Shown here piece after piece: positions 11,728-44,491 of a stretch of DNA of 64,000 nt. The notes below the pieces were generated by a model. It worked only from the letters and a program-made list of their open reading frames with translations. It had not been told where the DNA came from and made no database searches. The stretch is from Meiothermus ruber DSM 1279 (GTDB taxonomy: Bacteria; Deinococcota; Deinococci; Deinococcales; Thermaceae). How positions within the stretch are numbered: the stretch's first letter is position 1; every line of letters begins with the position of its first letter. Position numbers and translations under genes: made by a program. The DNA lies in the NCBI RefSeq assembly GCF_000024425.1, contig NC_013946.1:434001-498000 (forward strand), in the 5' to 3' direction.

Positions 11728-11735
11728 GGGCCCTC

Positions 11736-12875
11736 CTAGCGCCGCCCAAAGCGTGAGACCGCGAACCCCACCGCACCGACCGCCACCGCAATCAGGGCCA
11801 CCCCGATCAGCCCCCACAGGGTGGAGGTCTGCACGGTCACCCGGTAATCGGCCGAGGCCTGGGCTCCTTCGGCGCTGGCCCGTAGGGTCAGCATGTAGTC
11901 GCCTGCAACGGCCCGGGAGGAGGGCTTGATGCGGGCGGTAACCTCCGACTCGGCCCCTGGGGCCAGCCGCTCGATCTTGTCGGGCTCAAACCTGACCTCC
12001 CAGCCCGAAGGCTCGCTGGCGGAAAGCTCGAGGTTCTCTGCCGGGGCGCTGCCGTTGTTCTTGACTACCAGCTTGATGGGGTTCTCACGCCCGGCATAGG
12101 CCCGCCCTGAGAGCCGCTCCTCCGGCGTGGAGAGGCTCAGCTCGACCTGGCCGGTGATATCCAGGTTCACGGCCAGCTCGGCCTTGGCCTCCCCGGCCAG
12201 GGCCCGCAGGGTAACGGCATAAACTTTGGCCTCCACCTGCCTGGGGGGGGTGACCTGAACCTCCAGATCGCGGCTTTCCCCGGCTTTTAAGGGCAGGCTG
12301 TTGATCTCCTGGCCGCCAAAGGCGGTGCTGAAGCTCACCCGGAAGTTCTCGGGGGCGTCGGCCTCGAGGTTGACCAGCAAATCCTGGTCGCTCTCGTTTC
12401 GAAGGGTAACCCGGTAGCGGAAGCTGGCGGTGGGGGTGCCTTTGAGCACGGGGAGCTCGGTCTCGAGGGATAGCCGCTTGGGCAGCACCTGGCCCAGCGT
12501 GAGGGCAATGGGGAGCTCGGCCCGTACCCCGCTGCCCTCGGCCACCAGCCGGAAGCGGTAGGTGCCGGCTCGCACGTTTTGCGGCGGTTCAAGCCGCAGG
12601 GAAAGGCTCTGCTCTCCATCGGGCAGCACATACACCGCGCCCACCACCCGGCCCCCGCCCAGCAGGCTGGCCTTCCAGCCCGGGGCCAGCTCGGCGACCC
12701 GCACCTGCACGGTCTGGGGCGGCAGGTTGTAGCCCTTGAGGGTGATGGGTAGGCTGATGGTTTCACCCAACCGCACGCTTTGCGAGGGGTAGGGCGTGTA
12801 CAGGGCCAGACCACGGAACCCCTGGGCCAGGCCCAGGCTCATCATCAGCAGCAAGAGCGCAAGTAGGCGTGGCAT
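11736..12875 (-). CDS. Secreted membrane-anchored protein with NEW3-type beta domains
   Basis: A 379-residue protein. It has a signal peptide (residues 1-18), three or more beta-sandwich repeats and a C-terminal TM helix with a basic tail (about residues 353-379, ending FGRR), so it would sit outside the cell anchored in the membrane. Phrases such as [20 protein letters not shown] and [24 protein letters not shown] are typical of NEW3/COG1470 proteins, which are often encoded beside ABC-2 exporters. GGAGG precedes the ATG. The downstream ATPase and permease genes are co-oriented and tightly spaced. The function is not known. Confidence 0.75.
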
Positions 12876-12932
12876 GCTTCACCTCCGCACGAAGTTTTTC
12901 ACCTGTGAATCTAGAAAAGAAAGATGAAATGT

Positions 12933-12960
12933 ACATTAAAAGCATAACGATACTTGACAA
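12933..12960 (-). promoter_or_regulatory. Candidate divergent promoter of the NEW3/ABC operon
   Basis: On the minus strand TTGTCA (12960-12955), a 16-base spacer, then TAATGT (12938-12933). The -35 overlaps that of the hsp20 promoter on the other strand. It is weaker than the hsp20 promoter. Confidence 0.4.
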
Positions 12961-12973
12961 TATTATGCTCAAC
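12953..12973 (+). promoter_or_regulatory. HAIR-like (HspR) operator candidate
   Basis: CTTGACA, seven bases, then GCTCAAC. The HspR operator HAIR is CTTGAGT-N7-ACTCAAG; ten of fourteen bases agree and the spacing is exact. It covers the -35 box of the hsp20 promoter. Confidence 0.5.
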
Positions 12974-12982
12974 TTTTATAAT
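12954..12982 (+). promoter_or_regulatory. Consensus sigma-A promoter of hsp20
   Basis: TTGACA (12954-12959), exactly 17 bases, TATAAT (12977-12982). Both boxes match the consensus perfectly, the only such pair I found in the window. Confidence 0.88.
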
Positions 12983-13033
12983 AAGCGACTGTAGGGAATC
13001 TGATAACAAAGCCCTACGAAAGGAGGTTTCAGT

Positions 13034-13501
13034 ATGCTGGACATTGTTCGGAACGTACCTGTTCAGACGATGCCTCTGCGGAGCTGGAATCTCTCGAGCG
13101 TAAACGACTTCTTCCATGAGTTCGACCGGCTCTGGAACGAGGTGACGACATCCCTGGGCAGCGCATGGCCCGCTGGTGTCTACCCCTACGATCTTTACGA
13201 GACTGGGGACAGCCTGGTGCTGGAGATGGCGGTGCCGGGCCTGCGCAAAGACGACCTCGAGGTACGCCTGGAAGGCAACCGGCTGACCATCCGGGGTACT
13301 TACCCAGAGGCCCAGGGCAGCGATGAGCGCCGCTACTGGTCGCGGGGTCTGCCGCGCGGCAGCTTCGTGCAGAGCCTGACCCTACCCGCCTCGGTGGAGG
13401 TGGACAAGATTCAGGCCACCATCACCGATGGCCTCCTGCGCCTGACCCTGCCCAAGGTGGAGCAGGCCCGCGTGCGCAAGATCGCCATCAGCGCGGCCTA
13501 A
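13034..13501 (+). CDS. hsp20: Small heat-shock protein, Hsp20/alpha-crystallin family
   Basis: A 155-residue chaperone. The N-terminal arm carries NDFFHEFDRLWNE. The alpha-crystallin domain spans about residues 45-140, with YDLYETGDSLVLEMAVPGL, LEVRLEGNRLTIRG and the GLLRLTLPK strand followed by the ARVRKIAIS tail, the usual I-x-I type end. These proteins hold unfolding proteins in large oligomers without ATP. AGGAGG lies eight bases before the ATG. A consensus promoter and a HAIR-like site upstream imply heat-inducible repression. Confidence 0.94.
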   Translation: MLDIVRNVPVQTMPLRSWNLSSVNDFFHEFDRLWNEVTTSLGSAWPAGVYPYDLYETGDSLVLEMAVPGLRKDDLEVRLEGNRLTIRGTYPEAQGSDERRYWSRGLPRGSFVQSLTLPASVEVDKIQATITDGLLRLTLPKVEQARVRKIAISAA

Positions 13502-13524
13502 GCAAGCCGGCTTTTCTCAAAGCG

Positions 13525-13558
13525 CAGCTCCATAGCTCATGGAGCTGTGTCATTTTTT
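13525..13558. terminator. Intrinsic terminator between hsp20 and the MFS gene
   Basis: A 9-bp stem CAGCTCCAT (13525-13533)/ATGGAGCTG (13539-13547) with a 5-base loop, then TGTCATTTTTT. It serves hsp20 and lies just past the stop of the convergent MFS gene. Confidence 0.8.
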
Positions 13559-14695
13559 AACTTGCAGGAGCCCGGCGAGCAGAGAAATCAGCACGGCCAG
13601 CCCCGCTACCGCCATAAAAGATACCCGCAGCGAGGTCACCTGGGCCACCAGGCCGATCAGGGGCGGCCCGCTCAAAAACCCCAGGTAGCCCAGCGTTGCC
13701 ACCGAAGCCAGCGCCACCCCGGGCTGCACCCCCGGCACCCTGCCGGCGGCGCTGAACACCAGGGGAAACAAGGTGCAGTAACCCAGCCCGATCAGCACAA
13801 AGCCCAGCATGGCGACCTCGGGGCGGTTGGTAACAAGCGTGGTTATGAAACCGCTGGCGGCCAGCAGGCCACCGGCTCGAGCCATCGCCACCGGCCCAAA
13901 CCGATGTATGAGGGCGTCGCCGCTCAGGCGGCCCACCACCATGGCCACCGAAAACGCCGAGAAGGCCAGCGCGGCCACGGCCTCGCTGGTGCCCATCTCG
14001 TGCTTCATGAATACCGCGCTCCAGTCGGCCACAGCCCCCTCGCCCAGGCCGGTGCAGAACACGATCAAGCCCAGGCCCAGCAGCACCCCTCGAGGCCAGA
14101 CAAAGCGCGGCCCGCTCGCGGCTGGTCGAACCTCGAGCAGGTATCGAGTGGCCGCCAGCATCAGCAGCCCCGTGACCAGGGCCGTCCAGGCAAAGAAGGG
14201 CAGCGGTGCCAGTCCGCCCGCTGCGGCGGCCCCTCCCAGGGCGGCCCCTACCAGGCCCCCCAGGCTAAACAGCGCATGGAAACTGGACATAATGGGCCGG
14301 GTGTAGCGTTTTTCAACCTCCACGGCCTGGGCGTTCATGGCGATGTCCATGGCCGCGTTGGCGAAGCCAAATACAAACAGAGCCAGGCCCAGCGCCCAGC
14401 CGTTGGGGGCCAGGGCCAGCAGGGGTAGCGCGGCGCAGTTGCTCATGGCGGCCCAGGCCAGCACCGGTCGGCTGCCCCAGCGCGCGATCAGCCAGCCGGT
14501 TAGGGGCATGGCCAGCACCAGTCCGATGGGGCCTCCCATCAGCACCAGGCCCAGCTCGCCGGCGTTCAGGCCTAGCTGCTGCTTGATGGCCGGAATGCGT
14601 GAAACCCAGGCGGCCAGCACCAGACCGCATATAAAAAAAGTTACATAGATGGCCTTCCGAGCCGGAGCGAGTTGATTGGGGGCTGCGGTACTCAA
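13550..14695 (-). CDS. MFS transporter
   Basis: A 381-residue major facilitator with about 12 TM helices. The loop after TM2 reads LTGWLIARWGSRPVLAWAA (MFS motif A type), and FANAAMDIAMNAQAVEVEKRY and MSSFHALFSLGGLVGAALGG resemble the YbjJ-like MFS subgroup. It starts at TTG 14695 with AAAGGA eight bases upstream; no closer ATG gives a full TM1. The substrate is unknown. The gene is separated by 29 bases from the next gene upstream, the cupin. Confidence 0.85.
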   Translation of the reverse strand: MSTAAPNQLAPARKAIYVTFFICGLVLAAWVSRIPAIKQQLGLNAGELGLVLMGGPIGLVLAMPLTGWLIARWGSRPVLAWAAMSNCAALPLLALAPNGWALGLALFVFGFANAAMDIAMNAQAVEVEKRYTRPIMSSFHALFSLGGLVGAALGGAAAAGGLAPLPFFAWTALVTGLLMLAATRYLLEVRPAASGPRFVWPRGVLLGLGLIVFCTGLGEGAVADWSAVFMKHEMGTSEAVAALAFSAFSVAMVVGRLSGDALIHRFGPVAMARAGGLLAASGFITTLVTNRPEVAMLGFVLIGLGYCTLFPLVFSAAGRVPGVQPGVALASVATLGYLGFLSGPPLIGLVAQVTSLRVSFMAVAGLAVLISLLAGLLQVKK

Positions 14696-44461: not shown

Positions 44462-44491
44462 AGGTTAGCACCTGTGAATAGGGTGTGTCAA
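44462..44491 (-). promoter_or_regulatory. Promoter of the tRNA-Cys/tRNA-Val operon
   Basis: On the minus strand TTGACA (44491-44486), 18 bases, TAACCT (44467-44462), 36 bases before tRNA-Cys. It is back to back with the TACGAT box of the 44516 gene. Confidence 0.65.

Follow-up and report, generated by a model that had tools for sequence, protein, structure and literature searches.

A predicted HspR operator on the -35 box of a perfect hsp20 promoter in Meiothermus ruber, and its recurrence before heat-shock genes of related genomes

The closest described system is that of Deinococcus radiodurans, in which HspR represses hsp20, genes of the dnaK operon, clpB, lonB and ftsH (Schmid 2005, as cited in the available portions of PMC2687793 and PMC6888292) and binds to HAIR sites (PMC6888292, same portions). 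In Streptomyces, the operator is symmetric (CTTGAGT-N7-ACTCAAG, the canonical HAIR motif in the accessible part of PMC6102357; also given as TTGAGY-N7-ACTCAA), the targets covered by the portions available include dnaK, clpB and lon, and DnaK acts as co-repressor of HspR until heat releases it (PMC6032397, available sections). In Helicobacter pylori, HspR works with HrcA as a partner: at groES and dnaK, HrcA binds over the core promoter and HspR upstream of it (PMC6032397, in part); HspR also represses the operon that encodes it, and its binding extends over 70-80 bp (PMC6102357 and PMC6032397, in part).

We find that this known HspR/HAIR control system extends to Meiothermus. As in D. radiodurans, a member of the same phylum, the sites lie near the promoters of hsp20, dnaK and clpB, and, as in Streptomyces, their geometry is 7-N7-7. 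In contrast to both, the left arm reads CTTGAYA; relative to D. radiodurans, Meiothermus further differs in a two-domain HspR chain and in ffh as an added candidate target, whereas ftsH, an HspR target in D. radiodurans according to the sources above, is seen in the Meiothermus set only beside dnaK, as its divergent neighbour. Our literature search found no study of HspR in Meiothermus or Thermus thermophilus, and the 2025 Life Sci Alliance paper on Deinococcus-Thermus promoters (PMC12340547) mentions neither Meiothermus, HspR, hsp20 nor heat shock. The results provide a variant of the HspR operator, together with a likely heat-shock regulon, for Meiothermus and its relatives.

The hsp20 promoter and its divergent neighbour

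The predicted operator occupies positions 12953..12973 of the plus strand of the window (the whole 64,000-nucleotide stretch analysed here) and consists of CTTGACA (12953-12959), the spacer ATATTAT (12960-12966) and GCTCAAC (12967-12973). An earlier, sequence-only reading had credited it with the exact HspR geometry and 10 of 14 canonical bases, and both statements proved correct on recount. It had also placed the site on the -35 box of a perfect hsp20 promoter and, in fact, the left arm holds TTGACA (12954..12959, plus strand), followed after 17 nt by the -10 box TATAAT (12977..12982, plus strand). TTGACA-N17-TATAAT (12954-12982) is the sole perfect instance both in the window and in the whole 3,097,457-base genome, where the reversed control pattern occurs at 0 places. 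That this unique promoter lies beneath a repressor is the second unexpected point of our analysis, alongside the candidate target ffh described below, and would make it a natural tight-off, strong-on promoter of a thermophile.

Downstream of the -10 box, we infer a transcription start such that the predicted mRNA opens directly with a terminal hairpin (12989..13020, plus strand), formed by TGTAGGG (12990-12996) and CCCTACG (13012-13018). Its folding energy of -9.1 kcal/mol was matched by 0 of 200 shuffles, and the hairpin may shield the mRNA at its 5' end. The hairpin is followed by the Shine-Dalgarno sequence AGGAGG (13021..13026, plus strand) and by hsp20 itself (13034..13501, plus strand), which encodes a small heat-shock protein of 155 aa (PF00011 HSP20, 72.7 bits) with its ATG at 13034, 52 nt past the -10 box. 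No Rfam family matched positions 12700-13600 at E up to 1. A 5'-terminal hairpin built from other letters is kept in further genera (L017, L018, L019, L020 and L025); the hsp20 leaders of family f4 and of genus g5, which we take to be Thermus, are too short for one.

On the minus strand, the divergent operon begins with the gene of a NEW3-domain protein (PF10633; 11736..12875) and includes the ORF of an ABC transporter ATPase (PF00005; 10798..11817, true start probably near 11730) and an ABC-2 permease (PF12679; 9834..10808). The sequence-only reading had seen a divergent promoter overlapping the HspR site and had proposed that the operon may share the control; in our results the promoter is not established and the shared control is not supported. 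The weak candidate promoter, TTGTCA-N16-TAATGT (12933..12960, minus strand, with TTGTCA at 12960-12955 and TAATGT at 12938-12933), reaches a score of 9.3; the best scores of shuffled sequence have a median of 8.1 and a 95% level of 12.2. The candidate is absent from the list of a consensus promoter scan. Among the best four matches listed for each of 11 Meiothermus sequences, its score is 9.3 in 5 and 5.1 in a further 4. We note that the palindrome alone yields -35-like hexamers on both strands.

The candidate promoter overlaps a conserved block, TTTTAATGTACATTTCATCTTTCTTTTCTAG (12911..12941, minus strand), which lies upstream of NEW3 and is kept also where hsp20 is not a neighbour. In 14 aligned sequences from both contexts, the block has the form TTnAT...TTCAT...CTAG, with two sequences departing at CTAG or TTCAT; it probably holds the promoter and regulatory sequences of the NEW3/ABC operon. 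The elements TTnAT and TTCAT stand about 11 bp apart, followed by CTAG (L388-L403); direct repeats at 11 bp resemble response-regulator sites.

A single operator serving both directions, through which HspR would repress the NEW3/ABC operon as well, nevertheless draws on several observations: NEW3 is the divergent neighbour at 9/9 Meiothermus hsp20A places with the exact site, ATTA within the candidate -10 does not vary among 11 Meiothermus sequences, and two genomes of one genus (G020 and G023) retain a 13/14 site before NEW3, facing away from it into a stretch with no hsp20. However, 12 of the 14 genomes in which NEW3 lies apart from hsp20 carry no HAIR-like site there above the level of shuffles. 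The invariant ATTA, for its part, belongs to the NEW3 block kept in both contexts; since the block includes the candidate -10, the NEW3 promoter is probably nearer its gene, with the HspR site outside. Together with a promoter score inside the shuffled range, these points make the shared control unlikely, and we prefer the reading in which the operator serves hsp20. The palindromes of G020 and G023 (loci L391 and L393) are possibly either relics of an hsp20 gene that has moved or real NEW3 operators.

Operator conservation and the likely regulon

Measured against the canonical motif, the hsp20 site does not stand out. At a threshold of at least 10/14, the canonical HAIR occurs at 15 places in the window against 12.1 expected (sd 2.6) under a first-order Markov null for the 64-kb window; a 10/14 match is therefore at chance level, and the motif match alone is no evidence. 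This agrees with an explanation in which a strong -35 box incidentally produces the resemblance to HAIR, with four of the ten matches due to TTGACA and the others to chance. The operator's left arm also departs from CTTGAGT at both inner positions. What settles the identity of the site is instead the comparison across the genome and its relatives. Against the lineage variant CTTGAYA-N7-RCTCAAS, the hsp20 site scores 14/14, and the two runners-up in the window score 12; among the 82 TTGAC sites of the window, the full 7/7 right arm is found only here.

The right arm and the C preceding TTGACA are unneeded by sigma-70 and yet kept in several families, and they thereby allow a test that selection on the -35 box does not affect. 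We examined 27 hsp20 loci of the 30 fetched and found TTGACA before hsp20 in 25 of them (L029 and L030 being without). In these 25, the right arm at the exact spacing matches RCTCAAS at 7/7 in 10, 6/7 in 7 and 5/7 in 8, so that every TTGACA-bearing promoter (25/25) has at least 5/7 and the site is, as the sequence-only reading implied, kept before hsp20 in relatives; a second, non-promoter TTGACA in L009 scored 2 and was left out of the count. The preceding C is kept in 23/25. Two Meiothermus orthologues (L012 and L015) have a degraded site, and in two hsp20 loci of genus g5 the right arm reads GCGCAGG. This retention, and the presence of the same motif outside the -35 at dnaK, 4 nt upstream of it, argue against a -35 by-product, which we regard as very improbable. 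By comparison of sequences, CTTGACA-N7-GCTCAAC at 12953-12973 is almost certainly an HspR operator, on the grounds of its full match to the variant consensus, the related hsp20 promoters and the recurrence of the site throughout the regulon.

This recurrence emerged from a first search with CTTGA-N11-TCAAG, one mismatch allowed, which returned a set of like sites before heat-shock genes. The variant CTTGAYA-N7-RCTCAAS was derived from the sites of the own genome, and 60 other genomes served as a hold-out. In the own genome the variant occurs exactly 6 times, before dnaK, clpB, groES-groEL, two hsp20 genes and ffh; the exact variant thus stands before both dnaK and clpB, the two genes at which the sequence-only reading had proposed to look for it. 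Across all 61 genomes it has 111 occurrences and the reversed pattern 2; of the 111, 105 lie in the 60 hold-out genomes. At least one exact variant site is present in 36/61 genomes, with 0/14 in genus g5. The surroundings of 110 of the 111 places are distinct, and at 107 of these 110 a gene of one of seven classes follows, read in the direction of the pattern: ClpB (31), DnaK (24), GroEL (15), Hsp20B (14), Hsp20A (10), Ffh (8) and Lon (5). The genes were named by family search, with the DnaK, ClpB, GroEL and Lon pieces ending at the locus edge and some of them scoring below the whole-protein cut-off. Since the places are orthologues of one another, their counts do not represent independent events; the seven gene classes do. 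The three places without any of the classes (L127, L166 and L223, with L166 close to a contig end) are about the number expected from the control. Used as a genome search pattern, the symmetric TTGAGY-N7-RCTCAA gave no useful signal (89 places against 78 reversed in 61 genomes). A near-canonical site, CTTGAGTGAACTTTGCTCAAG, stands before lon (L042).

The position of the operator varies among the targets. It covers the -35 box at both hsp20 genes and at clpB, surrounds it at ffh, and lies further upstream at groES than the 4 nt seen at dnaK; in this it resembles the HspR sites at groES and dnaK of H. pylori. At clpB, the -10 box (CATAAT) stands only 9 nt before the ATG (L062, 1501 onward; G000:C1:872910), so the clpB mRNA probably has little or no leader. 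In the draft genome G005, two HAIR-type promoters lie about 830 bases apart before clpB-like starts (L220, 1201 and 2031), which suggests a duplicated clpB start.

At groES-groEL (L041, 1590-1616), the HAIR-type site is followed by a degenerate CIRCE (13/18), which suggests, by analogy with H. pylori, dual control by HspR and HrcA. CIRCE has the form TTAGCACTC-N9-GAGTGCTAA. That hsp20 should itself be under HrcA/CIRCE and not HspR can practically be set aside: the genome does encode HrcA (59 bits, cut-off 22.2) and groES has its CIRCE beside the HAIR, but the best CIRCE match near hsp20, considered and rejected as an operator, is 9/18, and the best in the window (13/18) is at 44465.

ffh as a candidate target

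At ffh, a HAIR-type palindrome surrounds the -35 box (L066, 1501-1521; G000:C1:999508-999528). Among Meiothermus and genera g2 and g4, all 17 genomes with an identified ffh (a search of G005 for ffh found none) have a site upstream that scores 11 to 14/14 against the variant, and 0 to 6 of 200 shuffles attained these scores; the site reads TTGATATTGACACRCTCAA in most. In six genomes of g5, g3 and f4, good conservation is confined to the right half, and in six of families f2, f3 and f5 no HAIR-like site was found upstream of ffh. The -35 box within the palindrome accounts for part of the conservation, but neither TTGAT, upstream of the box, nor CTCAA, in the spacer, belongs to the promoter motif. 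On the strength of these comparisons, we lean slightly towards an HspR regulon that includes ffh, the GTPase of the SRP, in Meiothermus and its sister genera, which would tie membrane-protein targeting to the chaperone-sensing repressor of hsp20, dnaK and clpB.

As a candidate HspR target, ffh is an unexpected part of the regulon. In the available portions of the two papers that mention HspR, ffh and heat shock together, and in that of PMC6032397, we saw no link between HspR and ffh, and the paper on the HspR regulon of S. coelicolor mentions neither ffh nor 'signal recognition'. If ffh is truly a target, protein folding and protein targeting would be controlled via a common sensor in this lineage.

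The fused HspR and its proposed action

The hspR gene that the sequence-only reading would have to presuppose is present. A single open frame (G000:C1:969353-970078) passes the HspR family models, reaching 242 bits with NF047375, whose cut-off is 105, and 400 bits with NF047377, whose cut-off is 300, and two of the four MerR_1 matches in the genome are its tandem halves. Judged by these matches, the repressor is a two-domain, single-chain HspR. We note that NF047377 is named 'HspR, fused homodimer type', so that the fused form is already known to NCBI curators, and we found no difference between it and the Meiothermus protein.

In Streptomyces, hspR is located in the dnaK operon. In Meiothermus, unlike Streptomyces, the gene preceding hspR is a malic-enzyme gene (PF03949), not dnaK. 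The best score upstream of hspR is 9/14, and thus no site for self-control by HAIR was found before the gene, in contrast to the autoregulation of H. pylori HspR.

The presence of hspR, the sites before dnaK and clpB, and the conservation at related hsp20 genes together support the control of hsp20 by HspR that had been proposed from the window. We consider it very probable that HspR represses hsp20 through this operator and that heat releases it, with binding, repression, DnaK feedback and release deduced from the sequences compared. In the proposed mechanism, the two MerR-type DNA-binding domains of one HspR chain would bind both arms of the operator, the left arm being the -35 box, and the bound repressor would sterically keep RNA polymerase off an ideal sigma-70 promoter. 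Upon heat, unfolded proteins would most likely, by analogy with Streptomyces, draw off the co-repressor DnaK, HspR would be released, and the hsp20 promoter would fire at full strength. The same repressor and type of site would act at dnaK, clpB, groES-groEL and the second hsp20 gene, and probably at ffh and lon.

The HspR proteins of M. ruber and Meiothermus taiwanensis share 98% identity. An AlphaFold model of the latter (pLDDT 74, pTM 0.54) shows two winged-helix domains with a long helix after each; how the halves are placed relative to each other is modelled with too little certainty to demonstrate a pseudo-dimer. The fused form is found across Meiothermus and its sister genera, in several g5 genomes and in further families. 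In family f3 (Trueperaceae), eight genomes have a single-domain HspR. We considered whether the asymmetry of the operator reflects the fusion and rejected this, because the single-domain f3 genomes also have CTTGAYA-type sites at clpB; at dnaK, the left arm of the f3 sites is TTGATA or TTGACA in 5/8 and TTGAG in 3/8.

In some g5 genomes, one HspR domain or none was counted, one remnant being at a contig end (L162). We do not claim a loss of hspR in g5, as the repeats are nearly identical there and draft assemblies can collapse such repeats; a HAIR-like site before dnaK is still present in 15/15 g5 and g3 genomes examined. The two HspR repeats form separate clades in Meiothermus and near genera and are nearly identical within each protein in g5 and f4. 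The near-identical halves in g5 (L109, L112 and L114) and the diverged halves in Meiothermus suggest gene conversion in one lineage and specialisation in the other.
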